64,000 bases of DNA from Gimesia aquarii (GTDB lineage: Bacteria; Planctomycetota; Planctomycetia; Planctomycetales; Planctomycetaceae), in contig NZ_CP037920.1 of assembly GCF_007748195.1 (NCBI RefSeq), forward strand, positions 7,064,062-7,128,061, written 5' to 3'. Under the pieces are notes generated by a model. It saw only the letters and a program-made list of their open reading frames with translations. It searched no databases and was not told where the DNA came from. Position numbers and translations under genes: made by a program. Shown piece after piece: positions 15,224 through 47,821 of the stretch (position 1 is its first letter; every line of letters begins with the position of its first letter).

Positions 15224-15679
15224 TTATGGTTTAAGATCAAAGTCGAACGTGTTTTCTCCTTCTTTGACGACGACCTGTAAATCAGTATCCTGTTCACTTT
15301 GGTATTTCTTAGGGACATCTTTAAGTGCGTCTTTCAATTCTGGATTTCCTGATTCAGAAGGGGGTGCGTCCCCAAGCCCAGGGGAGGTAAGGTAGACACG
15401 ATATTCGCCTGCAGGGATTTCACCTGGCAATTCGTACGTGCCATCTTCCATTACGTCAGCATAAACACCAGTTCCAGTCGTCGAAGAGACATAATTGACC
15501 CTGGCCTGTTTCAATACGTTTCCGTTAAACTTGATTGTCCCCGCTGCCGTTCCAGAAGGAACAGCATTTGCACTTCCTCCACAACCACTTATCAGGCAAA
15601 CTGGTGCCATTACGATTACTCCTGAAAAAAACGCGTTTACCAGAAGCTGATTGACTTTCAAACGCAAATGACCAGACAT
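15224..15679 (-). CDS. Small lipoprotein with transthyretin/carboxypeptidase-regulatory-like fold
   Basis: 151 residues. A signal and lipobox LISGC (Cys33) are followed by GGSANAVPSG and a short beta domain (GTIKFNGNVLKQARVNYVS ... GTYELPGEIPAGEYRVYLTS). This pattern is typical of the many planctomycete carboxypeptidase-regulatory-like lipoproteins that often sit next to DUF1559 prepilin-like genes, as here (105 bases downstream of one). The downstream TPR/FG-GAP lipoprotein starts 12 bases on. A strong terminator at 15710-15747 separates it from the prepilin gene, so its own promoter should lie in 15680-15710 or transcription reads through. Function unknown. Confidence 0.88.
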   Translation of the reverse strand: MSGHLRLKVNQLLVNAFFSGVIVMAPVCLISGCGGSANAVPSGTAAGTIKFNGNVLKQARVNYVSSTTGTGVYADVMEDGTYELPGEIPAGEYRVYLTSPGLGDAPPSESGNPELKDALKDVPKKYQSEQDTDLQVVVKEGENTFDFDLKP

Positions 15680-15709
15680 TACATATTCTCCATACGTCAG
15701 TTAGTTCAA

Positions 15710-15747
15710 TAAAAACAGCCGATGCATATCAGAGTCGCATCGGCTGT
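15710..15747 (-). terminator. Rho-independent terminator after the DUF1559 gene
   Basis: A perfect 11-bp stem (ACAGCCGATGC at 15715-15725 with GCATCGGCTGT at 15737-15747, 11-base loop) is followed on the minus strand by TTTTTATTG. It lies 37 bases beyond the stop of the gene at 15784-16767. Confidence 0.85.
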
Positions 15748-15783
15748 ATTGTTAACATTAATTCAACGACTAGTTTTTAAGAT

Positions 15784-16767
15784 TTAAAACTCACCTAAGA
15801 CAAGGTCATCGTTTTTCATGCCCAATCGACGAAGAGTTTCGATATCGAGATTGTCGGAAATAAATCGAACAGCACCATCTGCAAGCAGGGCATGCATGCC
15901 TCCCACATGGAACGAAGTTAACGGATTGTTTGGCGTATAGGTTTGATCGCCTCCGGCAGGAGCGGTCTGAGGGTTGGGACTATAGCGAACTGTATTGACT
16001 CCCGTTCCCCAGCTTGACAGCCCAATATGTCCTGCCCAGCCACCGTAGTAGTTGCTACGGTAATCTCTGTTATTAACGAGCCCTGAGTCTTCACCAATGA
16101 TAATTGTATTTGAGGTCCCATCAGTACAATCACGCATTCGGGCAGATTTACCAATCATCATGAGTCCGTTGTTACACCAGAATCCCCCGTAAGCGCTACC
16201 ACAACCGCTGTTGTAAGGTGCGGCATTCGCATAGGAACCACTAATACCAACATAGTCCATAGTCATACCTTTTTCACTTCCCAAAGCAGCATTGGGGGAG
16301 GTCCTGCCATTATTGGAAACAGGACTGGTTCCGGTATAAAAGGAATCAGCGGAGCTTGAAGGGCATTTATAGATCGGTATGAACAGATTATTTAACACAG
16401 CATTTTCTGTGTTATAACCAGAGGCAGAATTTCCATTACCAGATGCATAACCATGGAGTGGAATCGGAGTCTGAGTTAGCTGGTTGTAAGCAGGCGCCTG
16501 ATCAATATAAGGCAAGATAGAAGATCGCCAGTTTGCTCTGTAATAGGAAGTTTGCGAACCAATGGGAAATGCTCTAAAAGTATCGTGGTAATTGTGAAGT
16601 GCCAATCCAATTTGTTTCATGTTGTTTTTACAAGTAGATCGTCGAGCGGCTTCACGCGCTTGTTGAACCGCTGGAAGTAATAGAGCAATCAGAATTGCAA
16701 TAATTGCGATGACAACGAGTAACTCAATCAGTGTAAAACCTCGCCTCATCAGGGATGTCTTCAACAT
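15784..16767 (-). CDS. DUF1559 prepilin-like protein (H-X9-DG type)
   Basis: 327 residues. It begins with a type II secretion/type IV pilin-like signal: a short positive head, then [19 protein letters not shown] with cleavage expected after Gly and Glu at +5. The conserved [20 protein letters not shown] follows. The C-terminus holds the family mark, His, nine residues, Asp-Gly (HVGGMHALLADG). Such proteins are numerous paralogs in planctomycetes; they may be pseudopilins or surface proteins, with roles mostly undetermined. A second member is at 58103-59017. It is monocistronic, with a clear terminator downstream and about 330 bases of non-coding sequence upstream. Confidence 0.93.
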   Translation of the reverse strand: MLKTSLMRRGFTLIELLVVIAIIAILIALLLPAVQQAREAARRSTCKNNMKQIGLALHNYHDTFRAFPIGSQTSYYRANWRSSILPYIDQAPAYNQLTQTPIPLHGYASGNGNSASGYNTENAVLNNLFIPIYKCPSSSADSFYTGTSPVSNNGRTSPNAALGSEKGMTMDYVGISGSYANAAPYNSGCGSAYGGFWCNNGLMMIGKSARMRDCTDGTSNTIIIGEDSGLVNNRDYRSNYYGGWAGHIGLSSWGTGVNTVRYSPNPQTAPAGGDQTYTPNNPLTSFHVGGMHALLADGAVRFISDNLDIETLRRLGMKNDDLVLGEF

Positions 16768-17097
16768 AAAGTCGTTCCTTAAAATCTAAAAAAATAAAAA
16801 GTGTTTAGAATCATTGAAGGGGGTAACGAAACCCGTTGCAGGAATGAAAAATCGCTTTCCAGTGTTCTACTTGAAGCGGAAGGAAAAAGTTTCAGTAAGA
16901 TTGATTATTTATTAATCATTACTAAAAACAAGTATGTAAAAGTAACCTAACTAGCTAGAATAGAAGCTATTTGACTAAACATACCTAGAACGCATGATCA
17001 CATATTTTGATGGCAAAACCACACTTTGCCATCAAAATACCTTATAGGAACTGACAGATTAGGTGATCATGTTCCTGGAATCTGAGAAATGCCCCAT
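16768..17097. other. Intergenic region with nested inverted repeats
   Basis: 330 bases between two minus-strand genes. The part next to the prepilin gene is AT-rich and should hold its promoter. The part next to the permease holds the hairpin at 17003-17039 and a flanking 9-bp inverted repeat (16993-17001 with 17063-17071). I see no gene. Confidence 0.5.
17003..17039 (-). terminator. Long perfect hairpin downstream of the permease gene
   Basis: Two perfectly complementary 15-base arms (17003-17017 TATTTTGATGGCAAA and 17025-17039) with a 7-base loop lie 59 bases after the stop of the minus-strand permease gene. There is no separate T-run, but the distal arm is U-rich on the minus strand, so termination or 3'-end protection is likely. 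A second 9-bp inverted repeat encloses it. Confidence 0.6.
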
Positions 17098-35508: not shown

Positions 35509-37317
35509 ATGACACGAATTAATACTAACGTTGCCTCGATCAGAGGTTTACGTAGTTTAAATAAATCTACGAGTCTTTTAGACCAGTCTTTGACACGATT
35601 GTCAACTGGTTTGAAAATTAACTCTGGTAAAGACAATCCATCAGGTTTGATCGCCAGTGAAACACTGCGATCTCAGGTGTCTGCGATTGAGCAATCAATC
35701 AAAAACAGTAACCGTGCCAGTAACGTGATCGCGACTGCTGACTCGGCTCTGGGTGAAGTCACCAACCTGTTGAACCAGGTTCGAGGTTTGGTTCAAGAAG
35801 GCTTGAACGAAGGTGCTCTGTCATCAGATGAAATTGCAGCGAATCAGCTTCAAATTGATACTGCTTTATCTGCCATTAACCGAATTTCAGCAAATACATC
35901 ATTCGCCGGCGACAAACTGATCGATGGTAGTAAAGCATTCCGAACACAAGCCTCTGCAGTCGACTCAGCCAAACTTTCTGACTTCCAGGTCAACGAAGCC
36001 GTATTCGGTTCCAGCAGTACGATTACACTCGATGCCACAATCGTGACTGCCGCAACTCAGGCCAGCTTGGATTATAGTGCCGTTTCTGGTGGTTTAGCAT
36101 CTGCCACAACAATCGAAGTTGGTGGAGCCAGTGGTAGTCAGGTGCTATTCCTCGGAGCCTCAAGTTCGCTTGACAACGTGCGTGATGCTGTGAATGGTGT
36201 GACCGACATTACAGGTGTGACCGCTACAAAAACCAATAAGGTTGCCAGTAATCTGGTAATTGACAGTGCTGCTGTTAACTCAGATCTGACATTTACAGAT
36301 GCCCGAACGTCAGACAGTCTCTTAGGTAGTACAGGACAGAATATTCGAGTTGCCATAACGGCCGCCAATGGGCCGAACTCAGTCGCAGGTATTACATTCA
36401 GTAATAATAACACTGATATTACGATTAATATTCAGGTTGCATCTGATGCAAATAATGCGATTACATCGAACGCGACTTCTATCAAGACGTTATTAGATGG
36501 TAATGCCGATACCAACGCATTGATCTCCACGGCTGTCGAAGGTGCTGGTGCTGGTGTCGTCGATGTCACCGCTGCTGCTGCCTTAAGCGGTGGTACTGAC
36601 GCTTACTTGACTTTCAGTGCTTCTAACTATGGCTCTGACGAGTTTGTTGACGTTAACGTGTTGTCTGGAACCTTTGATACCGTCGACAATGTGACCGATG
36701 CCAATGCTCTCTCACGAGATATCGGCTCCGATATTGTCGCCCGAATTAACGGACAGGTCGCTCAAGGTTCTGGTCTACAGGCCAACCTGCGATCTCAACA
36801 GCTTGATGCATCGTTCTCCTTCACTGCTGCTGCTAACACAGCCTCAAATACCGCCAGTTTAACAATTACCGGTGGTGGTTCACTGTTCCAGATTGGACAG
36901 GATGTATCAGCCGCCGGTCAGGTAGGTATTGGTATTGAAGCTGTGAATACGGCCCGGTTGGGTGGTGTTTCCGGTAAACTGTTCGAACTGGGATCAGGCG
37001 GTGGTAAGAGTCTGCTTGATGTAGGTCCTGCTGTTCCTGGTGCAGACCTGGTGAATATCATCGAAGAGGCAGTCAACCGTGTTTCCACCCTTCGTGGTCG
37101 ATTGGGTGCGATTCAGAAAAACGTGATCGAAACCAATGTCTCCTCGCTGGGGGTTGCTTTGGAAAACATTTCTGAAGCTCGAAGCCAGATCGTGGACACC
37201 GACTTTGCTGTCGAAACTGCGAATCTGACGAAAGCTCAGATTTTGAACCAGGCAGGTATTTCGGTACTTTCGATTGCCAACCAGAACCCACAGCAGGTAT
37301 TGAGTCTCTTAGGATAA
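35509..37317 (+). CDS. fliC: Flagellin
   Basis: 602 residues, the main filament subunit. The conserved N-terminal D0/D1 region (about 1-165) has RINTNVASIRGLRSLNKST, LTRLSTGLKINSGKDNPSGL and the spoke helix VTNLLNQVRGLVQEG. The C-terminal D1/D0 (about 515-602) has RLGAIQKNVIETNVSSLGVA, DFAVETANLTKAQILNQAG and ends QNPQQVLSLLG. The middle about 350 residues are Ser/Thr/Ala/Asp-rich and variable (D2/D3-like), offering many O-glycosylation candidates. A terminator follows at 37368-37405. Next downstream is a glycosyltransferase fusion, then modification genes, fliD and fliS. Confidence 0.96.
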   Translation: MTRINTNVASIRGLRSLNKSTSLLDQSLTRLSTGLKINSGKDNPSGLIASETLRSQVSAIEQSIKNSNRASNVIATADSALGEVTNLLNQVRGLVQEGLNEGALSSDEIAANQLQIDTALSAINRISANTSFAGDKLIDGSKAFRTQASAVDSAKLSDFQVNEAVFGSSSTITLDATIVTAATQASLDYSAVSGGLASATTIEVGGASGSQVLFLGASSSLDNVRDAVNGVTDITGVTATKTNKVASNLVIDSAAVNSDLTFTDARTSDSLLGSTGQNIRVAITAANGPNSVAGITFSNNNTDITINIQVASDANNAITSNATSIKTLLDGNADTNALISTAVEGAGAGVVDVTAAAALSGGTDAYLTFSASNYGSDEFVDVNVLSGTFDTVDNVTDANALSRDIGSDIVARINGQVAQGSGLQANLRSQQLDASFSFTAAANTASNTASLTITGGGSLFQIGQDVSAAGQVGIGIEAVNTARLGGVSGKLFELGSGGGKSLLDVGPAVPGADLVNIIEEAVNRVSTLRGRLGAIQKNVIETNVSSLGVALENISEARSQIVDTDFAVETANLTKAQILNQAGISVLSIANQNPQQVLSLLG

Positions 37318-37623
37318 TAATCCTCTGAGAAGTCGATTACCGACTGAAAAATAAGTTCAGAAACGAAAACACTACTCATCATACGATGGGTAGTGTTTTT
37401 TATTTATACCCGCTGTTCATCCTATTTCCCCAAACAGCTTACAGTTATAAACCTTGTTTGAATCTGATTTCAGACTGACTAAAGAAACGGCTTATCTCTC
37501 TCCCCGCCTCAGCCGATACAAACAGAATAACCGGAATAGTCTAGCTGGTGATCGAACCTGCACAGGTTTTAACAGCTTGCATTGCAAAAAATACAATCCG
37601 TACTGTGACTCAAAGAAGATTCT
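37318..37623. other. Intergenic region between flagellin and the OGT fusion gene
   Basis: 306 bases. The first 90 hold the flagellin terminator (37368-37405). The rest is a leader for the next gene, with GCCGATAC at 37512-37519 that resembles the -10 half of a flagellar sigma-28 promoter, but no TAAA -35 box at the right distance. Minus-strand tRNA-like letters around 37546 (GGTTCGATC) do not fold into a tRNA. Confidence 0.45.
37368..37405 (+). terminator. Flagellin terminator
   Basis: AACACTACTCAT pairs with ATGGGTAGTGTT (one T-G wobble), then TTTTTTATTT on the plus strand. It lies 50 bases after the flagellin stop, so flagellin is probably its own strong transcript. Confidence 0.9.
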
Positions 37624-40600
37624 ATGCCTTCACCTCAGGAACTATTGGCAACGGCGGTTCAACAGCATCAAGCTGGAAATCTCCCTCTGGCAGAAGAATT
37701 TTACCGTGAAGTACTCAAGCACGACCCGGGTCAAGCAGATGCATTGCATTTACTAGGTGTGGTGTACTTGCATTTAAAACAATACACAAAATCCATCGAT
37801 TTTATTACACGCGCTATTTGCCAGAATGATAGATTCGGAACTTTCTATTCAAATCGAGGTGCTGCTTATAAAGGCTTAGGCCAATTACAAGACGCAATTA
37901 CAAACTACGAGCGCGCCATCGAATTGGATTCTCAAAATCCGACGTTCATCTTTAATCTGGGAATTACTCTCGCTTCAGCAGGAAAAAAGCGGGAAGCGAT
38001 TGAAGCGTACCGCAAATCGCTTGAACTAAAGCCAGACTATATCGACGCGTTGATAAACCTTGGTAATCTATTGCTTGAAGAAGAAGAGAGCCTCAAAGAG
38101 TCCATTACAATATGTCAGCAAGTCATCAAGCTGGCACCTCAAGTTCATACAGCCCATTTTAATCTAGCCAATGCGCTATCAAAGTCAGAAACACCTGAGC
38201 TCGCTGACGATTCCTTTCAACGCGCATTGCAGCTCGCTCCCAACCATCTCGATACGATGAAGAACTATGCCGTATTTCTGTCATCACAGCAAAAATACGA
38301 AGCAGCGATCATCGTTCTCCGAAAAGCAGCAATACTCCAGCCAAATTGCTGGGAAATTTTGAATAATTTGGGAATCGTTTATGCCGAACAGCAAGAGTTT
38401 GAATCCGCGATCAAATGTTTTCGTCATGCTCTCAAACAGGTACCTGAGAATTGTGATATTCAATTGCATCTAGCGAAAGCTCTGGAGGGGGCACAAGAAG
38501 TTCACCTGGCATTGACGACATATCGAAATATTCTGGATCAGCACCCAAATCATCCCGGTGCCGCTTTTCACTTAGGCACATTGGCAGCTTCACTTGGTGA
38601 TCTGGACTATGCCTATGATATTTTTCAAAGTCTCTATCAAAGCGATCCAACTAATACAGCATCCCTGTATGGCATGGGCTGCATTCGATTGAAACAGAGA
38701 AAAACCGGCTCTGCGGTTGGCTATTTTGAATCATTGGTGGTGCTTGAGCCAGATCATTTACAATCACGAATCCATTTAATTGATCTGTATTCCCGACAAT
38801 TGCGAGACAAGGAAGTCAGTAAGCATGTCGATGAATCACTCGAATACCATCCTGAAAGTGCGATACTCTGGAATTATCGAGGCCATGTTCAAAACCAGAA
38901 ACAACAGACAAAAAAAGCTCTTAAAAGTTTCTTGCGTGCTGTCGAGCTGGACGATTCTTTATTCCAGACTTACAGCAATCTAGCTTCTATCTACCAGGGA
39001 ATGGGACAGTTTCAGGAAGCGAGAGATGCACTTGAAAAAGCCTACGAGCTAGTCGCTCTACCAGAATATCGCCTCGCGATTGCAAGTTTGTTACCACCGA
39101 TACCCGCTTCTCAGGAAGCAATTAATGAAGTCCGTCAATCGTTTGTAGAAAAAATCGAAGAGATGCACGCTGATGAGGTGCAGATTGATGCTTCGATTAA
39201 ACTGATCCCCGGCACATTTTATCTCGCATACCAGGGATTTAATGACCGTCCGATTATCGAACGTATGGCGGAGCTATATCTACTCAAAAACACTCTTTCC
39301 TGGAATCAGCAAGAGCCAACAATCGAACGAGATGGACGGATCCGAATTGGTTTCATATCTAGTCTATTCTATAACCATACCATTGGTTCATTGATGAAAG
39401 GGATCATCAAGAATTTTGATCGAGAAAAGTATCATGTCATTACGATTTCAACCGTAAAACACGATGATACCACAGCAAAACATATTCGGGAAAATTCAGA
39501 CGAATATGTATTTCTGGGAATTGATCTACAACGGGCGAATCAGGTTCTGCAAAGCCTGGAACTGGATATTTTGTATTATGCTGATATTGGCATGGATCCG
39601 TTTATCTTCTCTCTTGCCACAACGCGTCATGCACCCATCCAGAGTGTTACCTGGGGACACCCAATTACGACCGGCTTAAAAACCATTGATTATTTTATCT
39701 CAAGCAAGCTGATCGAACCGGAAGATGCAGAAGAACACTACTCAGAAAAACTAGTTCAATTAAATTCTCTACCATCTTACTATTATCGACCCAGTTTACC
39801 GGAAAAAATAAAAACGCGAGGGGCATTTGGGCTTTCGGACGACGTACATATTTATGCCTGCCCTCAAACCATGTTTAAAATTCATCCTGAATTTGATCAG
39901 GTCCTGGCAGGTATTCTACGAAAAGACCCAAAAGCACGTATCGTTATGATTCGTGACCAAATTTCCAAATGGAAGGATTTACTAGTCGAACGATTTAATA
40001 AATCTTTTTCTGATGTCGTTGATCGAATTCACTGGTTGCGCGGAATGTCGACGAATGACTTTCTGAACCTGATTTATATTTCCGACGTCATGCTGGATCC
40101 GATGCACTTCGGAGGCGGCAATACTTCCTATCAGTCGATGGCCATTGGAACGCCTGTTGTGACATTGCCGGCAAAATATATGCGTGGTCGCGGTATGCTG
40201 GCTGTCTATAAAAAGATGGAGATTATGGACTGCGTTGTTTCGTCTATCGACGAATACATTGATCTCGCCTGTCGCATTGGTGAAGATGAAAATTTCCGCG
40301 ATCAACTCCGTCTGAAAATTCTTTCCAAAAGTCATCTTGTTTTTGAAGATATGAACACTGTTCGAGAACTGGAAGCGTTTTTCGAATCTGCATTGCACGA
40401 GTTAGAAACACAAAAAAAAACTCATCAACCTCATACGAATCTGATAAGCTCTGCCTCAAATAAGGATGAAAGCATGGATGCTTCATTAAACAACACACAA
40501 AGTCAAGATCACTCCCATCTCCTCAATTCTGCCATGCAGAATTATACATGTCCCGCTTGTGGATACCATATTGCGGTCCAGTTTTATGATGGAGGGTTGC

Positions 40601-41829
40601 TCCCCTTGACGACACTGGCGTGGCCACAGACCTGCGAAGAAGCACAGACGATGGAACGTTTGCCGCATGACTTCATGCGGTGTGTGGATTGCGGACACAT
40701 TTCGAATGCCGCGTTCGACTATGCGAAGGTTCCTTATTCAGATAAACCAAACTTAATGTTCAACAAAGGAGCAATCTGGTCTGAACACTTGCAGAAAGTC
40801 TGCGACCTGATTTCAGAGCATCTGCCTGAAAATCCAACTGTTGTGGAAATCGGTTGTGGAGAAGGTCATCTATTGCGTTCACTGGCAAAGAAAATTCCTA
40901 CAGGAAAATTCATCGGCTTTGATCCAAACGCAGAAATCGAGACCGAAGGCGCCTTGATTGATGCTCGGGCGATGTTGTTTGAACCAGGAACACATCTGGC
41001 GGAACTGCAGCCCGATCTGATCATCAGCCGACATGTGTTTGAACATTTGATGAATCCTCTGGGTTTTGCGCAAGAAGTCGCATTTGCCGCGAACGTCGCT
41101 GAGTGTGCGACCAAACTGTTTATTGAAGTCCCCTGTATTGACGGTGTACTGGCGGCAGGTCGCACGGTTGACTTCTTCTACGAGCACAATTCTCATTTTA
41201 CGACCCAATCGCTGGAAAGACTGTTAACCCGCTGTGCCACAGCCGTTGATTTGATTGAAACCAGCTACAACGGCGAAGTGATTTACGGACTGGCCAGCTT
41301 CCAGCCGCAAAAACACCAGGTCGAATTAGCACGTCAGGCAGTGATGTTTCAGGAAAAGGCTCTGCAGTCTGCGGCTCAACTGGCGCAGCAGTTTGATGAT
41401 CTGGTGAGCACCGGAAAACGAGTGGCAATTTGGGGCGGTACTGGAAAAGCGGCTGCGTTTATCAACCAGAACCAGCTTGATCAAAATCGCTTTCCGGTTG
41501 TAATCGATTCAGATCAGAATAAAGTCGGCACTTTTGTACCTGGAACGGGTCAGGAAATTCTCTTCCGAGATCATTTGATCGAAGAACCGGTCGAAGTCAT
41601 TCTGATTGCCACTCAATGGCGAGCCGCCGATATTGTACTTGAAATTGAACGCAATCAAATTCCCTTCAAGGCAATCTTGATCGAATATCAGGGGCGATTG
41701 ATCGATTATTTCAAAGATCAACACCCCTACCGTGGGGAACACGACCAATCTGAATCACAGGTCCCAAGGCCTCAGTTCCTTTCACAGAAAAACAGACAAC
41801 GTGATTCAATCGACAGCGATATCATATAA
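37624..41829 (+). CDS. TPR / OGT-like glycosyltransferase / zinc ribbon / methyltransferase fusion
   Basis: 1401 residues. TPRs occupy about 1-480 (for example AITNYERAIELDSQNPTFIF). An OGT-like GT41 domain spans about 570-920: GFISSLFYNHTIGSL with His585 at the position of the OGT active-site His, HPITTGLKTIDYFIS, FKIHPEF with Lys752 aligning with the UDP-binding Lys, and HFGGGNTSYQSMAIGTPVV. Then CPACG ... CVDCG (Cys976, 979, 1020, 1023), a SAM methyltransferase (VVEIGCGEGHLL, 1073-1084; HVFEHLMNPLGF) and a Rossmann-like end (VAIWGGTGKAAAFI) as in sugar C-methyltransferases. It follows flagellin directly. I infer that it O-glycosylates flagellin (UDP-GlcNAc-type donor) and methylates a sugar. 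Family letters are seen; targets are not proven. Confidence 0.9.
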   Translation: MPSPQELLATAVQQHQAGNLPLAEEFYREVLKHDPGQADALHLLGVVYLHLKQYTKSIDFITRAICQNDRFGTFYSNRGAAYKGLGQLQDAITNYERAIELDSQNPTFIFNLGITLASAGKKREAIEAYRKSLELKPDYIDALINLGNLLLEEEESLKESITICQQVIKLAPQVHTAHFNLANALSKSETPELADDSFQRALQLAPNHLDTMKNYAVFLSSQQKYEAAIIVLRKAAILQPNCWEILNNLGIVYAEQQEFESAIKCFRHALKQVPENCDIQLHLAKALEGAQEVHLALTTYRNILDQHPNHPGAAFHLGTLAASLGDLDYAYDIFQSLYQSDPTNTASLYGMGCIRLKQRKTGSAVGYFESLVVLEPDHLQSRIHLIDLYSRQLRDKEVSKHVDESLEYHPESAILWNYRGHVQNQKQQTKKALKSFLRAVELDDSLFQTYSNLASIYQGMGQFQEARDALEKAYELVALPEYRLAIASLLPPIPASQEAINEVRQSFVEKIEEMHADEVQIDASIKLIPGTFYLAYQGFNDRPIIERMAELYLLKNTLSWNQQEPTIERDGRIRIGFISSLFYNHTIGSLMKGIIKNFDREKYHVITISTVKHDDTTAKHIRENSDEYVFLGIDLQRANQVLQSLELDILYYADIGMDPFIFSLATTRHAPIQSVTWGHPITTGLKTIDYFISSKLIEPEDAEEHYSEKLVQLNSLPSYYYRPSLPEKIKTRGAFGLSDDVHIYACPQTMFKIHPEFDQVLAGILRKDPKARIVMIRDQISKWKDLLVERFNKSFSDVVDRIHWLRGMSTNDFLNLIYISDVMLDPMHFGGGNTSYQSMAIGTPVVTLPAKYMRGRGMLAVYKKMEIMDCVVSSIDEYIDLACRIGEDENFRDQLRLKILSKSHLVFEDMNTVRELEAFFESALHELETQKKTHQPHTNLISSASNKDESMDASLNNTQSQDHSHLLNSAMQNYTCPACGYHIAVQFYDGGLLPLTTLAWPQTCEEAQTMERLPHDFMRCVDCGHISNAAFDYAKVPYSDKPNLMFNKGAIWSEHLQKVCDLISEHLPENPTVVEIGCGEGHLLRSLAKKIPTGKFIGFDPNAEIETEGALIDARAMLFEPGTHLAELQPDLIISRHVFEHLMNPLGFAQEVAFAANVAECATKLFIEVPCIDGVLAAGRTVDFFYEHNSHFTTQSLERLLTRCATAVDLIETSYNGEVIYGLASFQPQKHQVELARQAVMFQEKALQSAAQLAQQFDDLVSTGKRVAIWGGTGKAAAFINQNQLDQNRFPVVIDSDQNKVGTFVPGTGQEILFRDHLIEEPVEVILIATQWRAADIVLEIERNQIPFKAILIEYQGRLIDYFKDQHPYRGEHDQSESQVPRPQFLSQKNRQRDSIDSDII

Positions 41830-41898
41830 ACGTAGACGGAATCAGCGTTCGATATATGAATGCTTCCACAAAGACCACGATTTCAGACAGGATAAAAT

Positions 41899-42600
41899 AT
41901 GATCATCTTTAATTTCGGAATTCCCAATTCAGGAACCGACTGGTCACAGGAAGTCTTTAAGAAGATCTGGGAAAAACAGAACTATACGTTCCAGGTCGAA
42001 GAGCCAGAGTCATTGGAGGAACTGAATCATCTGATTGGAACGATGAATGTAAACGAGCGAATGATTATTCGGTTTCATTTGCTGACCGAAGAAGCTATTG
42101 AGGCCGCTCAACAGGATGCCGTACGCCCTTTTTATCATTATCGTGACCCTCGTGATGTGGTTTGCATCGAGATGGAAAACAGCGACATCAATTTCTCAAC
42201 CGCCGTCGACCAGACAGTGAGTGCTTATCAGGAAATACACCATGCACTTTGTCTACCGGGAATCATGGTCATTCCTTATGAACACATCGTAGAAAATGCT
42301 GAAGCTTTGATTTTTCAGATGGCGACCAAATTAGGAGTTTTACTAAAACTGAACGTTGCCTCGGAAATTGCTGCTGAAATACGTGAATTAATGGCACAAC
42401 CCGAGTGCGCGGTTGCTTCCACAGCCACCGACTCGCTCCCGGCACAAGCATTACGACTTGATGAAGAGCACACGTCAGATTCGCCCCTTGTTCAACCTCT
42501 GCTGATTGGCAAGTGGCGCAACCAGCTGACTCAGTCTGAAAGATCAATGGTCAACCGTTTTTTTAAACCTTTAGTCGATCAGTTTGGCTACGAACAATAA
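41899..42600 (+). CDS. Sulfotransferase-like protein
   Basis: 233 residues. An N-terminal 5'-phosphosulfate-loop-like GIPNSGTDW (residues 7-15) and a 3'-phosphate-binding-like YRDPRDVV (81-88) place it near PAPS-dependent sulfotransferases. Departures from the family: Asn10 sits where Lys or Arg normally contacts the sulfate, and the Ser expected eight residues after Arg82 is Ile90. So it could be inactive, use another donor, or be a divergent member. It is 69 bases after the OGT fusion gene and 34 before the PhyH gene, in the flagellar cassette. It could sulfate a flagellin glycan; this is inference. Confidence 0.72.
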   Translation: MIIFNFGIPNSGTDWSQEVFKKIWEKQNYTFQVEEPESLEELNHLIGTMNVNERMIIRFHLLTEEAIEAAQQDAVRPFYHYRDPRDVVCIEMENSDINFSTAVDQTVSAYQEIHHALCLPGIMVIPYEHIVENAEALIFQMATKLGVLLKLNVASEIAAEIRELMAQPECAVASTATDSLPAQALRLDEEHTSDSPLVQPLLIGKWRNQLTQSERSMVNRFFKPLVDQFGYEQ

Positions 42601-42634
42601 ACACACGGCTCATCAAAATGACCAGGGATGGTGA

Positions 42635-43489
42635 ATGATGCTTCCTATAAACCAATTATGTACCTTGAACTGTCAGACAGAAGGTGTTGAACTTTCAAAT
42701 GAGCGCCTGGATCAATATGCAGAAGAAGGGGTTCTGCTGGTAAAAAACCTGTTTGATCCCGTGGACTTCCTGTCGATTCGAAACGATCTTTCAGGACGCC
42801 TCACTCTCCTGGAACGACACAACGGTTGTGAAGTCTTTGAAAACGAAAATGAGATTTCACAAATCAGCGATCGATTGATCAGGCTGGAAGAGCAGGCTCC
42901 CGGTACGCAGAGCATTCTATATGATGCCATGAATTTTGCTCCATCCCTGCATGCGATGGGAGCACATTCGAAATTAATGGCGATTCTCGAAAAACTGCTC
43001 TCGCATGAAATTTCAATCCATGATCGGTATATCATTCTCATGAGTATGCCTCAGGGAGAATGGCATCTTGCGTCGTGGCATCAGGACTGGTATTACAATG
43101 AAGGTCCCCATTCAACAATTACGCTCTATGCACCTCTACAGAAAACGGATCAACAAAATGGTAGTCTGACGTTCGCATTAGGTGAGCATCAAAAACCACC
43201 GGTTCCACACGACGAATATAATCATGGAATTAACACGAAATGGCATTCACTTCCTCCCGAAGAGGTGAACCAATACGACCGCGTTGTACCAACGGCGCTG
43301 GATGTAGGAGACGTGCTGTTATTTCACAGTCTGACACCGCACACTCCATCAAAAAATCAATCGGATCATGTCCGGTTTGTATTGAATTTGCGGTATCGGG
43401 ATCTAAGAGATCCTCAATTCCTGAACGAAGGCTGGCGCATTCAAGAAATCACACGTGCCAGAAACGCAATGCAGAGATCGGCATCCTGA
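42635..43489 (+). CDS. PhyH-type Fe(II)/2-oxoglutarate dioxygenase
   Basis: 284 residues. Start ATG 42635 has AGGGA seven bases upstream. The PhyH fold is shown by YAEEGVLLVKNLFDPVDFL, the iron facial triad HxD in WHQDWYYNEG (His149, Asp151), a distal His in LLFHSLTPHTP (His231 or His236) and the 2-oxoglutarate-binding Arg in HVRFVLNLRY (Arg247). Family members hydroxylate small molecules and sugars. In this flagellar cluster it could hydroxylate a glycan or acyl group. Substrate not identified. Spacing from both neighbours is under 50 bases, so it is probably in the same transcript. Confidence 0.87.
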   Translation: MMLPINQLCTLNCQTEGVELSNERLDQYAEEGVLLVKNLFDPVDFLSIRNDLSGRLTLLERHNGCEVFENENEISQISDRLIRLEEQAPGTQSILYDAMNFAPSLHAMGAHSKLMAILEKLLSHEISIHDRYIILMSMPQGEWHLASWHQDWYYNEGPHSTITLYAPLQKTDQQNGSLTFALGEHQKPPVPHDEYNHGINTKWHSLPPEEVNQYDRVVPTALDVGDVLLFHSLTPHTPSKNQSDHVRFVLNLRYRDLRDPQFLNEGWRIQEITRARNAMQRSAS

Positions 43490-43533
43490 AACCAGATTTA
43501 TTCACGAAACACTTCATAAAAAGCTAATTAGAT

Positions 43534-44316
43534 ATGGCAGAAAAAAAAGGTTTACTACGAGGCAACGTGGGAGAATCGCAGAATCAGTCTGCGAGTGATT
43601 TAAATGCACTCAATGCTGTCGAGGAGTATTGGGAAACAAGTGTTGGCACGAACTTAAACAAGTTAGATGCGTTTACTAAATACGTTTCAAGACAATCGAT
43701 TACTAAATTACTGGCTCGTTATGAAATTTTCAAACAACAGTTAGATGTTAACGGATCAGTTGTCGAACTCGGCGTGCACCGGGGCGCCAGCTTAATGGCT
43801 TGGGCACAATTCAGTGCGATTTTAGAGCCTGTTAATTATCTACGAAAAATTATCGGCTTTGATACTTTCGAAGGCTTTCCCTCATTGAGCGAAAAAGACA
43901 CAACGGGAACCAGCGAACATCTTGAAGTAGGCGGTTTCAAGTCAGAAGAAAACGCAATGGAAGATATCGAACGAGCGACACAGGTTTATGATTCCACCCG
44001 TTATCTGAATCACATTCCGAAAGTGGAATTAGTGAAAGGGGATATCGGTGTCACGCTGCCAGAATATCTCGAAAAAAATCAGCATCTGGTCGTTTCATTG
44101 TTACATCTCGATGCAGATTTATACGAACCAACAAAAATCGCGTTGGAGCAACTGATTCCACGAATGCCCAAAGGGGCAATCATTGCCTTTGATGAGTTAA
44201 ATATGGATTTATTTCCAGGAGAGACTCTCGCTGCAATGGAAACGATCGGACTGCCAAAGTTACGACTGAAACGATTTCCCTTTGCGACTTCACTTTCCTA
44301 TGCTGTGATCGAATAG
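43534..44316 (+). CDS. TylF/MycF-type SAM-dependent methyltransferase
   Basis: 260 residues. SAM motif I is VVELGVHRGAS, followed by IIGFDTFEGFPSLSEKD, the metal-binding stretch LLHLDADLYEPTKIAL and IIAFDELNMDLF. This matches TylF/MycF macrocin-type O-methyltransferases, which methylate deoxysugar hydroxyls with Mg2+, and the broad class often found in surface-glycan clusters. Together with the OGT fusion, the PhyH and the sulfotransferase-like gene it suggests a decorated flagellin glycan. It is separated from fliD by 246 bases, in which a separate promoter-like element lies. Confidence 0.88.
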   Translation: MAEKKGLLRGNVGESQNQSASDLNALNAVEEYWETSVGTNLNKLDAFTKYVSRQSITKLLARYEIFKQQLDVNGSVVELGVHRGASLMAWAQFSAILEPVNYLRKIIGFDTFEGFPSLSEKDTTGTSEHLEVGGFKSEENAMEDIERATQVYDSTRYLNHIPKVELVKGDIGVTLPEYLEKNQHLVVSLLHLDADLYEPTKIALEQLIPRMPKGAIIAFDELNMDLFPGETLAAMETIGLPKLRLKRFPFATSLSYAVIE

Positions 44317-44562
44317 CATCATGGCCTGAAAATTCCTCATAATTGCTAAATTCTTTTAAAAAGCCGCTTTACAGAGCAGATCTTGGAACACTCTCTTCAA
44401 GCAGCAACCTTTGACTAACCGATATAAATTTAGATGCAGTAGTCCGTCGTGCGCGGTCAATGATTAAGGGCCCAAGCGCGCACTAACGATATGACTTCAG
44501 GATTTGGCTCTTGTAATGTAAGAGGAGCAGTCGCTCAATTACTCTAAGACAGGCTTGGTAAG
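44317..44562 (+). promoter_or_regulatory. Probable fliD promoter region
   Basis: 246 bases between the methyltransferase gene and fliD. CCGATAT at 44419-44425 resembles the GCCGATAA -10 half of a sigma-28 promoter, 138 bases before the fliD start. A TCAAG at its -35 side is a poor match to TAAA. AAGAGGAG lies further upstream of the start codon than usual. Low confidence. Confidence 0.35.
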
Positions 44563-47298
44563 ATGTCAGGCATTAGTTCCGGTGTCGGTCTGGCAACCGG
44601 ATTGAACATTACGGAAATTGTGGACGCCCTGATCGGCGTCCAGCGAAATGCTCTCGTGAAGCTGGCAGATCGTGCGTCCGGATTTACCGCTGTTGAAGGG
44701 GGTATCAAGACCCTCGAAGCCAACCTGCTTTCGTTGAATTCCTCAGTACAAACACTGGGCCTGGAAAGCACTTTTGAGACGCTGCAGGCCACGAGCTCCG
44801 ACACGAGTCAATTCAGCGTTGCCGCCAACAGCACCGCCACCGCAGCCACCTATCAATTACAGGGCTTGCGTACCTCATCGAACCATCAAGTCATTTCAAA
44901 AGGATTCGCTGATTCCGATACAACACAAATTGGAACAGCAACCACCATTACCCTTTCAAATGGCGGTAAGCTGGATCAGCCCAAACTTCTGGAAGAGTTG
45001 AATAATGGTTTGGGCGTTCAACGTGGGAGTATTCGCATTACCGACCGCGATGGTCAGACAGAAGTCATTGACCTGACCAAGACAATTGATATCGATGATG
45101 TGATCGACACCATCAATAAGTCAGCCACAACGATTGTCGCCAGTATTGAAGACGATCATCTGGTGATTACCGATACCGGCTCAGGTGTGGGAACTCTTTC
45201 CGTCACCGAAGTGGGCGGCGGTCAAACAGCAGCTGATTTGGGAATTTTGAAGTCAGTGGCTGGCTCGTCGTTTAATGGTGACTCCGTCTATCGAGTGACT
45301 ACTGATTTTAACTTGTCACAAATTAACGATGGAAATGGGATTACGACAGTCGCAGGTTCCGATGACTTTCAAATCACGGCCGCGGATGCATCAACCATCG
45401 ACGTTAATTTAGATACCGCGCAGACGATTGGAGACGTCGTCGATTTAATCAATAATGATGTCTCTAATGCAGGCAAAGTGACCGCCTCTATTGACAGTAA
45501 TGGGAAATTAAGCCTGGTTGATAATACCGTCGGTGGTTCTACCTTTGAAGTCACTGCCTTGAACAGCTCATTAGCAGCACGTGAGTTGGGAATTCAGCAG
45601 TCAGCTCCCGGTGGAACCATTCTGGGCACCCTCTCTGGTGGTTTAAATTCCGTCTTGCTCAGAAGCCTGAATGGCGGAGTTTCCGCGACGGGAACCGTAC
45701 TAAACGCAGGTCAGATTTCCATTACAGATGGTGCAGCAGGAAATGCAACCATCGACTTTTCTTCAGCGGAAACTCTGGATGATGTGATTGATCTGATCAA
45801 CGCGAATGGCTCAATTCAAATAGAAGCCAGCTTGAACGATACAAAAACGGGGATCCAAATCAAAGATCTCTCGGCTCCTTCGGGAACATCCATTGAAATA
45901 CAAGATGTCACCGGGAATTTAGCCAGCTTCCTCAAAATCGATACAACACTTGCTGAAACAAAACATACCGTTGATTCCGGTTCATTGGATTTGCGTTATG
46001 TTAATGAAGAGACATCCTTATCGACTTATGGAAAAAATGGTACGGCGGTCTCAACGGGTAGCATTCGCATTACAGACCGTGATGGAGTCAGCTTTAACGT
46101 CGACTTGTCAGACGCAACAACCACTAAAACAATCGGGGATGTGCTCACAAAAATTAATGATGCTGCCACCACAGCCAGTGCGCAAATCAATGCCCGTCTG
46201 AATGATGCCGGAGATGGTTTTATTATCGAAAGTACAGGTGGAAGCTCATTCGATGTCAAAGTCGAAGAAGTCTCCAGTGGAACCGTGGCAGCGGACTTGG
46301 GAATTTTAGGCTCAGGAACAACCAGTGTCGAAAGTAATCAGACGACAGTGATCACGGTTGAGGCAACAGATACGCTTGATGACATTGCAGAAAAAATTAA
46401 TGCCACAGGCGTTGCAACCGCATCGATTATTGATGATGGCACGGCATTTAATTCTTCTCGACTCTCTTTGACGTCTGTACGAAGCGGTGGTGCAGGGGAA
46501 ATGATTCTGGAGAGTTCATTCGATTTTGGATTTTCCACTTCTGTTGATGCTGAAGACGCTCTCATTCGCATTGGTAGTAACCCGCAAACCTCATTTTTAT
46601 TGACCTCATCTACCAACAGTTTTGACAATGCCATTACAGGACTGGAAATCGACTTACTTTCAACAGGTACTTCACCAGCCACAATTTCTGTTGCCCGTGA
46701 TACCGCAGGCATTAAATCTTCGATCAATAATTTTATCACTGCATATAATGCCTTCGTCGATGCCAAAGATTCACTCACCAGTTTTAACTCTGAAACGAAT
46801 GAACGAGGTGTGCTCAATGGAAATGGTGTTGTATTGACAACGGTTTCCCGTTTGGAAGGATTACTGACAAAAAAACTTTCTGTCAGTAACAACTCGATTA
46901 AGAGCATGTCTGAATTAGGAGTTCAGTTTAGTAGTAATGGGAAATTACAGCTTAACGAATCTTTTTTTGATCAGGTATTGATCGACGATCCCAGTGCCGT
47001 TACGGAGTTTTTCCAGCAGGAAGATACGGGATTTGCCGTTGTCATGGATGAAGTGATCACCGCGATGACGGATCCCTTTACCGGATCGTTTAAAGCACAG
47101 ATAGATTCATTGCAGGCATCGGCACTTTCATTGAACACACGTGTCGATGAACTGAATTCGATTTTGGAAGACCGTCGCGAACGACTGATTCGCCAATTTA
47201 CGCTACAGGAAACGATCGTCAATCAATTGAACTCACAACAGTCTGCATTAGAACGACTGCAACTTCTGACTTTTAACAATTCCAACAATAAAAAATAA
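44563..47298 (+). CDS. fliD: Flagellar hook-associated protein 2 (filament cap) FliD, extended
   Basis: 911 residues, much longer than the usual 450-700. N-terminal GVGLATGLNITEIVDALI is the FliD_N mark; FliD_C (about 680-905) ends with a coiled coil LNTRVDELNSILEDRRERLI. Between them are 4-5 hook-IN-like repeats about 110 residues apart: near 150 (GSIRITDRDGQTEVIDLT), 257 (VAGSDDFQITAADASTIDVN), 375 (AGQISITDGAAGNATIDFSS), 490 (GSIRITDRDGVSFNVDLS) and 593 (TVITVEATDTLDDIAEKINA). Each ends in a VID/IGDVxDxIN-like turn. The cap sits at the filament tip and folds incoming flagellin. It is followed by fliS. Confidence 0.93.
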   Translation: MSGISSGVGLATGLNITEIVDALIGVQRNALVKLADRASGFTAVEGGIKTLEANLLSLNSSVQTLGLESTFETLQATSSDTSQFSVAANSTATAATYQLQGLRTSSNHQVISKGFADSDTTQIGTATTITLSNGGKLDQPKLLEELNNGLGVQRGSIRITDRDGQTEVIDLTKTIDIDDVIDTINKSATTIVASIEDDHLVITDTGSGVGTLSVTEVGGGQTAADLGILKSVAGSSFNGDSVYRVTTDFNLSQINDGNGITTVAGSDDFQITAADASTIDVNLDTAQTIGDVVDLINNDVSNAGKVTASIDSNGKLSLVDNTVGGSTFEVTALNSSLAARELGIQQSAPGGTILGTLSGGLNSVLLRSLNGGVSATGTVLNAGQISITDGAAGNATIDFSSAETLDDVIDLINANGSIQIEASLNDTKTGIQIKDLSAPSGTSIEIQDVTGNLASFLKIDTTLAETKHTVDSGSLDLRYVNEETSLSTYGKNGTAVSTGSIRITDRDGVSFNVDLSDATTTKTIGDVLTKINDAATTASAQINARLNDAGDGFIIESTGGSSFDVKVEEVSSGTVAADLGILGSGTTSVESNQTTVITVEATDTLDDIAEKINATGVATASIIDDGTAFNSSRLSLTSVRSGGAGEMILESSFDFGFSTSVDAEDALIRIGSNPQTSFLLTSSTNSFDNAITGLEIDLLSTGTSPATISVARDTAGIKSSINNFITAYNAFVDAKDSLTSFNSETNERGVLNGNGVVLTTVSRLEGLLTKKLSVSNNSIKSMSELGVQFSSNGKLQLNESFFDQVLIDDPSAVTEFFQQEDTGFAVVMDEVITAMTDPFTGSFKAQIDSLQASALSLNTRVDELNSILEDRRERLIRQFTLQETIVNQLNSQQSALERLQLLTFNNSNNKK

Positions 47299-47347
47299 TT
47301 TCTACTAAATCGAGTCAATCAAATTAAATAGAGGGGCGATCAAGGAG

Positions 47348-47821
47348 ATGAACGGAAGCGATTATATTGAGAACCAGGTTCTAACAGCACAACCACATCA
47401 GTTGCATCTTATGGTGGTTGATGGCGCATTACGTTTTGCCCGAAAAGCAGCACAGGCGGCAGAAACCCAAAATTTTGAGCAGACTCACTTTGCGTTAGAC
47501 AAAAGCCGTGAGCTCGTTGCCGAACTGATAGGTGGATTGAATCCCGAACAGCAACCCGAGATGGTTGAACAGCTGAAAGCACTGTTTGTCTTTGTATATG
47601 AGAACTTAAACCACGCAGATGTTAAACAGGATCCGAAATACATTCACGATGCCATTAAGGTCTTGGAGATTCATCGAGAGTCCTGGTGTGAGCTTATCGA
47701 AATCCTGCAGACTGAAACCGTCGAGGAAAAAAAAACGATCCACTCTCCGGAATCACTGAAAGCCCCTCATCATGTTGAGCAACCGGAACAAGTACACCAA
47801 AGCCGCTCCTGGTTGACTTGA
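47348..47821 (+). CDS. fliS: Flagellin-specific chaperone FliS
   Basis: 157 residues, near the usual 120-150. The start MNGSDYIENQVLTAQPHQLH and the helices LHLMVVDGALRFARKAAQA and LFVFVYENLNHADVKQDPKY match FliS, which binds the flagellin C-terminus in the cytoplasm and keeps it export-ready. The C-terminal 30 residues, with KKTIHSPESLKAPHHVEQ, extend beyond the typical core. It begins 49 bases after fliD, the standard fliD-fliS order. A terminator-like hairpin of the opposite strand (47851-47881) lies 30 bases beyond its stop and may also act here. Confidence 0.93.
   Translation: MNGSDYIENQVLTAQPHQLHLMVVDGALRFARKAAQAAETQNFEQTHFALDKSRELVAELIGGLNPEQQPEMVEQLKALFVFVYENLNHADVKQDPKYIHDAIKVLEIHRESWCELIEILQTETVEEKKTIHSPESLKAPHHVEQPEQVHQSRSWLT

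Follow-up and report, generated by a model that had tools for sequence, protein, structure and literature searches.

The four genes lying between the flagellin gene fliC and fliD-fliS in Gimesia aquarii most likely form a cytoplasmic flagellin O-glycosylation island, with a glycosyltransferase and sugar-editing genes inserted beside fliC. Judged from the genes and their positions, a role for the cassette in modifying flagellin in Gimesia appears well supported. The glycosylation reading is based on the constant position of the cassette in Gimesia, the recurrence of flagellar linkage outside the genus and the co-occurrence of FliD in carriers. It also draws on the GT41, methyltransferase and TylF homologies, the presence of RmlB, the lack of PF01973 and purifying selection, and on two precedents, FlmG and the enterobacterial GT41-methyltransferase islands.

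Organization and conservation of the cassette in Gimesia

The window (the whole stretch analysed; 64,000 nt, GCF_007748195.1, NZ_CP037920.1, positions 7,064,062-7,128,061 of the forward strand) carries fliC, a TPR-GT41-methyltransferase fusion, a sulfotransferase-fold gene (ST), PhyH, TylF, fliD and fliS in this order on the plus strand, to which all coordinates below refer. Open reading frames and Pfam matches confirmed the original prediction of four modifying-enzyme genes on one strand between fliC and fliD-fliS. The candidate acceptor is the 602-aa flagellin encoded by fliC (35509-37317; Pfam Flagellin_N 1e-24, Flagellin_C 8e-22). On the other side lie fliD (44563-47298; filament cap, 911 aa; FliD_N/C, with FliD_C at 3.7e-42) and fliS (47348-47821; flagellin export chaperone, 157 aa; FliS 1.3e-26, TIGR00208 above cut-off). 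Intergenic gaps from fliC to fliS were 306, 69, 34, 44, 246 and 49 nt.

The gaps had been predicted to be small, which held within the cassette but not at its fliC end, where a terminator-like hairpin of 16 pairs followed by a T-rich tail (37365-37400) lies just 3' of fliC. Because of this hairpin, the cassette may be a transcription unit separate from fliC. The hairpin was able to fold in 13 of the 13 Gimesia genomes compared, with both arms of the stem varying in sequence; terminator-like sites in the region numbered 14, versus 13.2 in shuffled sequences. Upstream of the fusion, a block running from AGCCGATA to ACAGAATAACC (37511-37534) was near-invariant in 13/13 genomes and is a candidate promoter or leader element. 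A sigma-28-like promoter at the CCGATA block was considered and dropped, since the window contains 19 copies of this short pattern, against about 12 expected from base composition. Sigma-70-like promoters were not enriched (18 versus 21.5 in shuffles).

Seventeen Gimesia genomes were sampled, and 16 of them, the window included, have DNA at the locus. The fusion and ST were found upstream of fliD in all 16, and PhyH and TylF in 14, both genes being missing from the other two, so that one to three editing genes come after the fusion. In G011 and G015 fliC was not seen because their contigs begin within the fusion gene. The position of the cassette in Gimesia is more than chance. Parts of the four genes were under purifying selection, with dN/dS not exceeding 0.17 across six genome pairs (five pairs for PhyH and TylF; dS of TylF was saturated in G000/G012). 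RmlB scored over the cut-off in all 17 genomes. The Maf family (PF01973) was matched in 0/17, an absence that is weakly controlled because the control genomes that matched were all archaea.

Predicted activities and allele exchange

The fusion (37624-41829) is a protein of 1,401 residues with TPRs, Glyco_transf_41 (8e-28), Methyltransf_23 (7e-15) and Methyltransf_14 (1e-10). Its TPR part (about aa 1-490, 37624-39093; TPR_2 4.5e-53 and further TPR models), 65-82% identical within Gimesia, is by analogy with FlmG a probable flagellin reader. The glycosyltransferase domain is homologous to OGT/SPINDLY and has the catalytic homology and both motifs of GT41: HTIG (His) in the N-lobe (about aa 541-750, 39244-39873; best Glyco_transf_41 stretch 560-713) and the FKxHP lysine motif in the C-lobe (about aa 751-930, 39874-40413). 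The lobe borders and the roles of the His and Lys motifs are those we assume for such a domain. Among the ten rows listed of 21 aligned, HTIG was present in nine and FKxHP in ten. The third part (about aa 966-1360, 40519-41703; Methyltransf_23, Methyltransf_14) resembles sugar C-methyltransferases, its PDB relatives being D-mycarose 3-C-methyltransferase, a sugar 3-C-methyltransferase (5t64, which we take to be KijD1) and TcaB9. It has the cysteine pairs, SAM motif, Methyltransf_14 end and E-H pair of the TcaB9 type, in 10/10 rows listed; the His of the pair is presumably catalytic.

ST (41899-42600; 233 aa) matched Sulfotransfer_1 at 1.8e-6 and 28 bits (cut-off 22). A fold model was used because phmmer against PDB sequences gave no match at E 0.1. 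The model (pLDDT 75.7) had a best Foldseek match of 4e-8, and the 50 matches listed were all of PAPS-sulfotransferase type (TM 0.54-0.67 by query, rmsd 5-9 Å, gapped alignments), pointing to a PAPS sulfotransferase fold. The cofactor motifs (5'-phosphosulfate loop Lys/Arg, 3'-phosphate Ser) are eroded in Gimesia ST. At the positions we take for these residues, the loop Lys was Asn in 15 of 16 Gimesia genomes and Lys in one, and the Ser site held Ala in six, Thr in six, Val in two, Ile in one and Ser in one. In G095 and G097, outside the genus, ST retains Arg and Ser; that of G095 reached 21.6 bits in Pfam, just below the cut-off of 22. The earlier label "sulfotransferase-like" therefore suits the fold but not the eroded cofactor motifs, which make sulfation by ST doubtful.

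PhyH (42635-43489; 284 aa; Pfam PhyH 3.5e-13) belongs to a family of Fe(II)/2-oxoglutarate dioxygenases. H149-Q-D151, H231, H236, R247 and R253 were invariant in 14/14 sequences, so the HxD, a candidate distal His and the Arg of the HxD...H pattern are retained; its fold model failed (pLDDT 37). TylF (43534-44316; 260 aa; Pfam TylF 9e-12, also Methyltransf_24), an O-methyltransferase family member, was single-copy in each of the 14 genomes having it. Its closest solved relative was CalS11, a TDP-rhamnose 3'-O-methyltransferase (E 8e-38, residues 49-251), with homology across the catalytic domain.

Together these parts suggest a pathway in which the TPRs would bind flagellin in the cytoplasm before export, and the GT41 domain would move a sugar, probably a deoxy-sugar, from a nucleotide donor onto Ser/Thr of the exposed D2/D3 domains. 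The fused methyltransferase would methylate this sugar, most likely as the dTDP-4-keto-6-deoxy donor, PhyH would hydroxylate it and the CalS11-like TylF would O-methylate it. ST may add sulfate or may now be an accessory protein. The glycan should be simpler in the two species without PhyH and TylF.

The middle of fliC (about codons 150-500, D2/D3) was its variable part, 79-93% identical to other species, the ends being 93-100% identical. Between G000 and its sister G003, a tract of D2/D3 (36001-36750) was only 75-87% identical in nucleotides versus a window median of 96%, with a dS of 0.59 compared to 0.05 in D0/D1. The longest divergent aligned tract of this pair (37683-39931; 65-84% nucleotide identity, dS about 2) covers the TPR part and the GT N-lobe. 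Recombination breakpoints fell at aa 750-813 of the fusion, close to where the GT C-lobe begins, and allele exchange replacing the TPR part and GT N-lobe was recurrent. Elsewhere in the 64 kb, other G000/G003 divergent tracts of about 0.3-1 kb were observed, and a 1.8 kb stretch was absent from G003; at three further loci the pair was 95, 87 and 81% identical. Joint swapping of fliC D2/D3 and the TPR part was rejected: both were divergent in G000/G003, but in G004, G005, G006 and G014 the TPR/GT N-lobe was exchanged without fliC D2/D3.

A mirror-tree test (13 genomes; partial correlations with fliC D2/D3 against the flgL-region background) gave 0.16 for TPR (p 0.03), 0.34 for the GT N-lobe (p 0.01) and 0.29 for the methyltransferase (p below 0.01), with 0.10 for the GT C-lobe, 0.00 for ST, 0.08 for FliD and -0.03 for FliS. 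TPR itself correlated with FliS at 0.62 and with FliD at 0.46. These results were mixed and were not counted as support. We also consider, tentatively and as rather unlikely, that the fusion consists of two functional halves reshuffled during evolution. The reader half (TPR and GT N-lobe) would meet the acceptor, and the donor half (GT C-lobe, methyltransferase and ST, with or without PhyH-TylF) would determine the sugar. Through recombination close to the lobe border, related strains could re-pair readers with sugars, and the eroded ST would bind sugar or flagellin without sulfating. If true, flagella of new surface chemistry could arise, for instance against phages or grazers.

Distribution outside Gimesia and alternative explanations

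Of 397 genomes of the class, 25 had the methyltransferase domain at E 1e-80, including 15 of Gimesia. The proposed "planctomycete flagellar glycosylation system" was therefore too wide a name, while synteny in Gimesia gave good support to the flagellin-modification cassette itself. The synteny search suggested with the prediction likewise placed the fusion and ST before fliD across Gimesia. Among the 14 close carriers outside the genus, five (G081, G378, G368, G336, G328) have GT-MT or MT genes beside flagellar filament or hook genes. The chance of such linkage was 4e-8 to 6e-6, assuming that 0.75-2% of the genome is near such genes. FliD was present in 9/9 close carriers of the family versus 92/153 non-Gimesia genomes (p 0.009). 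Eight family genomes with distant MT matches (26-30% identity), four of which have FliD, were omitted from the carrier and linkage counts; with them the excess was 13/17 (p 0.11). PhyH and TylF were confined to Gimesia among annotated loci, barring a 49-residue TylF-like piece in G085 (locus L077), whose GT-MT frame was shown by tblastn and is absent from the ORF table. Among 40 fliD loci from other genera, 11 have fliC directly adjoining fliD with nothing between, and three have other TPR genes next to them. No full-length GT-MT relative was found in plasmid or phage collections (80% query coverage in 0/211 and 0/2 records, respectively).

In the other nine close carriers, the available DNA showed no flagellar linkage; for two of these, whose genomes are single contigs, the result is firm. 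GT-MT(-ST) genes were not beside flagellar genes in G056, G061, G071, G073, G074, G085, G097 and G276, several of them on short contigs. In the single-contig G095 they lie 2.5 Mb from fliD, between a cytidylyltransferase-like gene and an ornithine cyclodeaminase-like gene, a case of the dispersal in relatives that the original prediction had named as evidence against it. Therefore, other acceptors exist or linkage is unneeded. The Gimesia cassette might thus glycosylate another protein or a surface polysaccharide, having been captured in the flagellar locus with shared timing, and TPR-GT proteins without MT were linked to fliC/fliD in 0/9 annotated loci. We regard this as improbable, as in genomes of four families (f1, f5, f7, f14), with differing gene orders, linkage with fliC, fliD or genes of the flgK/flgL type is seen repeatedly.

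The TPR-GT plan shared with FlmG would also suit transfer of pseudaminic or legionaminic acid, on which the tailoring enzymes would then act, and 14 of 17 Gimesia genomes matched NeuB strongly (E about 1e-98 or lower). However, G010 (completeness 100), G011 and G016 keep the cassette with weak NeuB-family matches only, in G000 some 2.1 Mb separate the strong NeuB gene from the locus, and relatives of MT and TylF work on TDP-deoxysugars; the probability of a nonulosonic-acid system is low. Least probable, we consider, is direct methylation or sulfation of flagellin side chains by the methyltransferases or ST, apart from the GT. MT without a neighbouring GT does adjoin fliD in G368 and fliC in G336, and flagellin islands with methyltransferases alone are known, as is lysine methylation by FliB (PMC4875605). 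Yet solved relatives of both methyltransferase families act on sugars, and in 11 of 14 close non-Gimesia carriers MT has a GT41 part fused to it or next to it, G056, G368 and G336 being the exceptions.

Comparison with known systems

Among the papers listed for the topic in open-licence PubMed Central, none dealt with planctomycete flagellin glycosylation. Gimesia offers a compact, stable case of GT41 fused to a sugar methyltransferase with editing genes. With the two natural genomes lacking PhyH-TylF and the allele recombinants, the donor, the editing roles and the reader/donor split are approachable if these strains are cultured. CalS11, homologous to TylF, and TcaB9, 5t64 and D-mycarose 3-C-methyltransferase, homologous to the MT domain, are not fused to a protein glycosyltransferase, unlike the Gimesia MT; CalS11, TcaB9, KijD1 and the D-mycarose enzyme belong to antibiotic sugar pathways.

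In Caulobacter crescentus, FlmG binds flagellin through N-terminal TPRs, as examined by two-hybrid, and glycosylates it in the cytoplasm with its C-terminal GT-B domain (PMC7591256). The likeness to the Gimesia fusion concerns domain description; FlmG, described with TPR and GT parts, has 596 residues and a pseudaminic acid donor, compared to the 1,401-residue fusion. The Clostridium difficile type B island encodes GT2, with glycosyltransferase and methyltransferase domains in one protein, downstream of fliC; a methylated rhamnose was proposed for its glycan, which contains a sulfonated moiety (PMC5207246). That GT2 is Pfam PF00535 and not GT41, and no glycosulfotransferase gene was among the genes studied there.

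The prediction that the gene set is unusual holds only in part: in 2016, De Maayer and Cowan (PMC4875605) described enterobacterial islands downstream of fliC that encode GT41-methyltransferase proteins. As in Gimesia, these islands lie beside fliC and combine a SPINDLY-type GT41 and a methyltransferase in one protein, there in 194 strains, with additional sugar-editing genes that there vary between close strains. The main text of that paper contains none of the words sulfotransferase, phytanoyl and dioxygenase, whereas the Gimesia set has ST and PhyH. In enterobacteria the island occupies the fliC-fliA interval, in Gimesia the fliC-fliD interval, where it is kept genus-wide. The kind of island is thus already known, and what is new is the lineage, the enzyme set and the recurrent exchange of the TPR part and GT N-lobe.

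Organization of the cassette in Gimesia

The cassette at the flagellin locus is real and under selection. Open reading frames and domains in the window gave the order fliC, GT41-methyltransferase fusion (37624-41829), sulfotransferase-fold gene (ST), PhyH dioxygenase, TylF O-methyltransferase, fliD and fliS on the + strand, exactly as in the original prediction. The window belongs to a genome of one 7.40-Mb contig (G000). Five named relatives retrieved with the fusion protein were three Gimesia MAGs and two planctomycete MAGs with no genus name; G000 was accordingly treated as Gimesia or a very close neighbour, and the 17 genomes assigned to its genus are called Gimesia here; 16 were counted for the locus after G013, whose contig stops within fliC, was excluded. 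The fusion and ST genes followed by fliD and fliS were found in 16/16 genomes, the window included; fliC was not visible in G011 and G015, where the contigs start within the fusion gene. PhyH and TylF were present in 14 of the 16 loci and were both missing from the cassette locus in G004 and G014. A whole-genome search, made for TylF only, found none anywhere in these two genomes, and TylF was single-copy in each of its 14 carriers. A hairpin 3' of fliC folded in 13/13 genomes, and a block containing CCGATA, AGCCGATA..ACAGAATAACC (37511-37534), was nearly invariant 5' of the fusion gene in 13/13; the cassette is therefore perhaps transcribed separately from fliC. A short CCGATA-containing block was also seen 5' of fliD (44418).

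Allele exchange within the fusion gene

Foreign-allele tracts were present between sister Gimesia genomes. Between G000 and G003, dS was 2.0 for the tetratricopeptide repeats (TPRs) and 1.9 for the glycosyltransferase (GT) N-lobe; it was 0.59 for the variable D2/D3 part of fliC and 0.05-0.31 for all remaining tested parts. This 2.25-kb TPR/GT tract was the longest divergent aligned tract between the two genomes in the 64 kb, with shorter tracts also present. The G002/G008 pair had dS values of 2.4 (TPR) and 3.1 (GT N-lobe), compared with 0.2-1.2 in other parts. For G004/G014 the values were 0.59 (TPR) and 1.17 (GT N-lobe), and about 0.1 in the GT C-lobe, methyltransferase part (MT) and ST; the pattern was reversed in G006/G014 and G005/G014, so G014 looks recombinant. 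Breakpoints in the fusion protein fell at residue 769 (support 750-771), at residues 752-760 (a single event visible from both sides) and at residue 810 (809-813), with a weaker one in G001/G007 at residue 812 (799-867). Going by the domain borders of OGT, we take this region to be the first part of the donor-binding GT C-lobe; a functional reading of the breakpoints is a proposal only, because the conserved FKxHP stretch alone could attract them. Elsewhere, G000/G003 identity was uneven (87% for loci L159/L160, 95% for L161/L162 and 81% for L031/L039), pointing to homologous recombination in Gimesia. A stretch at 15280-17084 was unaligned to G003 and contained a DUF1559/SBP_bac_10 protein with an N-methylation motif (15784-16767).

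Encoded enzymes and the predicted glycan

The fusion protein consists of TPRs (about residues 1-490), a GT41 match (about 560-905) whose best solved relatives were the TPR protein 5djs, human OGT, SPINDLY and HMW1C-type enzymes, and an MT part (966-1360) resembling solved sugar 3-C-methyltransferases. The MT part matched D-mycarose 3-C-methyltransferase (6.7e-9) and a sugar 3-C-methyltransferase (1.1e-6); TcaB9 was also matched. In an alignment of 21 sequences, all 10 rows displayed retained the MT cysteine pairs, SAM motif and E-H pair, the His of which is presumably catalytic, as well as the GT Lys motif; the GT His motif was retained in 9/10, being missing in G276. TylF (P0004) was closest to CalS11, a TDP-rhamnose 3'-O-methyltransferase (8e-38), and candidate iron ligands of PhyH (P0003) were retained in 14/14. 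The description of P0002 as sulfotransferase-like stood as to its fold, a PAPS sulfotransferase fold being predicted (model pLDDT 75.7; best structural match E 4e-8). However, the presumed cofactor Lys was replaced by Asn in 15/16 Gimesia and the 3'-phosphate Ser position was variable. Distant ST copies of G095 and G097 retained Arg and Ser at the cofactor positions. The dN/dS of ST was 0.02-0.11 in six genome pairs, showing that purifying selection is still acting.

Flagellin is likely O-glycosylated by the cassette with a methylated sugar. A dTDP-deoxysugar donor fits the relatives of MT and TylF, and RmlB was above cut-off in 17/17 Gimesia; UDP-GlcNAc, as for OGT, may serve instead. A nonulosonic acid is probably not required by every carrier: NeuB had a strong match in 14/17 Gimesia, and G010, G011 (76% complete) and G016 kept the cassette with weak NeuB-family matches only. 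No Maf (PF01973) match was obtained in 17/17 Gimesia with a search whose control set matched archaea only.

Flagellar linkage in other genera and known systems

At 1e-80, 25/397 genomes from the class had an MT-domain match. The 10 that lie outside Gimesia, with G061, G071, G085 and G097 from the family search and loci, made up 14 close carriers, and eight family genomes with distant matches (26-30% identity; G028, G064, G066, G138, G141, G143, G145, G162) were excluded. Conserved synteny with flagellin genes, the check proposed with the original prediction, held for the fusion and ST genes before fliD in the 16/16 Gimesia loci counted and for GT/MT in 5/14 close carriers: G081 (GT, MT, fliD, fliS), G378 (fliC, fliD, GT-MT fusion), G368 (MT divergent from fliD-fliS), G336 (fliC, MT) and G328 (GT and MT in convergent orientation to flgK and a FlgL-type flagellin-domain protein). 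It did not extend to the other 9/14, which were unlinked on visible DNA, several on short contigs; the lack of linkage was firm in the single-contig genomes G095 and G276. GT and MT formed one protein in G071, G073, G074, G085 and G378 and separate adjoining genes in G061, G081, G095, G097, G276 and G328. FliD occurred in 9/9 close carriers of the family versus 92/153 non-Gimesia genomes (p 0.009), and in 13/17 when the eight distant carriers were included (p 0.11).

Several of these loci had further features. In G336, MT directly follows a very long flagellin ORF (1,065 aa; L154 5840-9037). G095 has an operon-like run far from fliD (L079 8306-15245) of cytidylyltransferase-like, TPR-GT41, MT, ST and ornithine cyclodeaminase-like genes; G097 has a similar unlinked run in L080, which starts within GT, and ST cofactor motifs were intact in both. 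In G085, GT-MT is followed by a 49-residue piece (L063 2849-2998) that shares 76% identity with the TylF end part and is perhaps left over from a more complete cassette beyond Gimesia.

Among 40 fliD loci, one from each of 40 other genomes, fliC lay directly against fliD with no gene between in 11 (L096, L099, L100, L101, L102, L105, L108, L112, L118, L121, L124); a small opposite-strand ORF alone separated them in L116, and in most remaining loci no fliC could be identified next to fliD. TPR proteins adjoined flagellar genes in three, accompanied by a pyruvyl-transferase-like gene in G086 and G080 and as a TPR-GT2 protein in G115. The flagellin locus thus seems to gather differing modification sets. 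The sets adjoining fliC/fliD in other genera (L115 6286-11486, L121 1132-10174, L126 5881-9411) comprised either TPR proteins accompanied by genes resembling polysaccharide pyruvyl transferase or GT29, or a TPR-GT2 protein.

No report of such a cassette was found in literature on planctomycetes with flagellin and glycosylation, on Gimesia with flagella and glycosyltransferase, or on flagellin with phytanoyl-CoA dioxygenase, nor among the matches listed for flagellin with sulfotransferase or glycosylation island and with GT41 or methyltransferase domain. TPRs can act as the flagellin reader of a GT-B enzyme, as FlmG demonstrates (PMC7591256), and C. difficile type B combines a GT-methyltransferase protein with a sulfonated glycan (PMC5207246). 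Enterobacteriaceae have islands that, like the Gimesia cassette, adjoin fliC and encode GT41 and methyltransferase domains in one protein (PMC4875605). The set originally called unusual is therefore of an already known kind; as far as searched, its lineage, enzyme set and exchange pattern are new.
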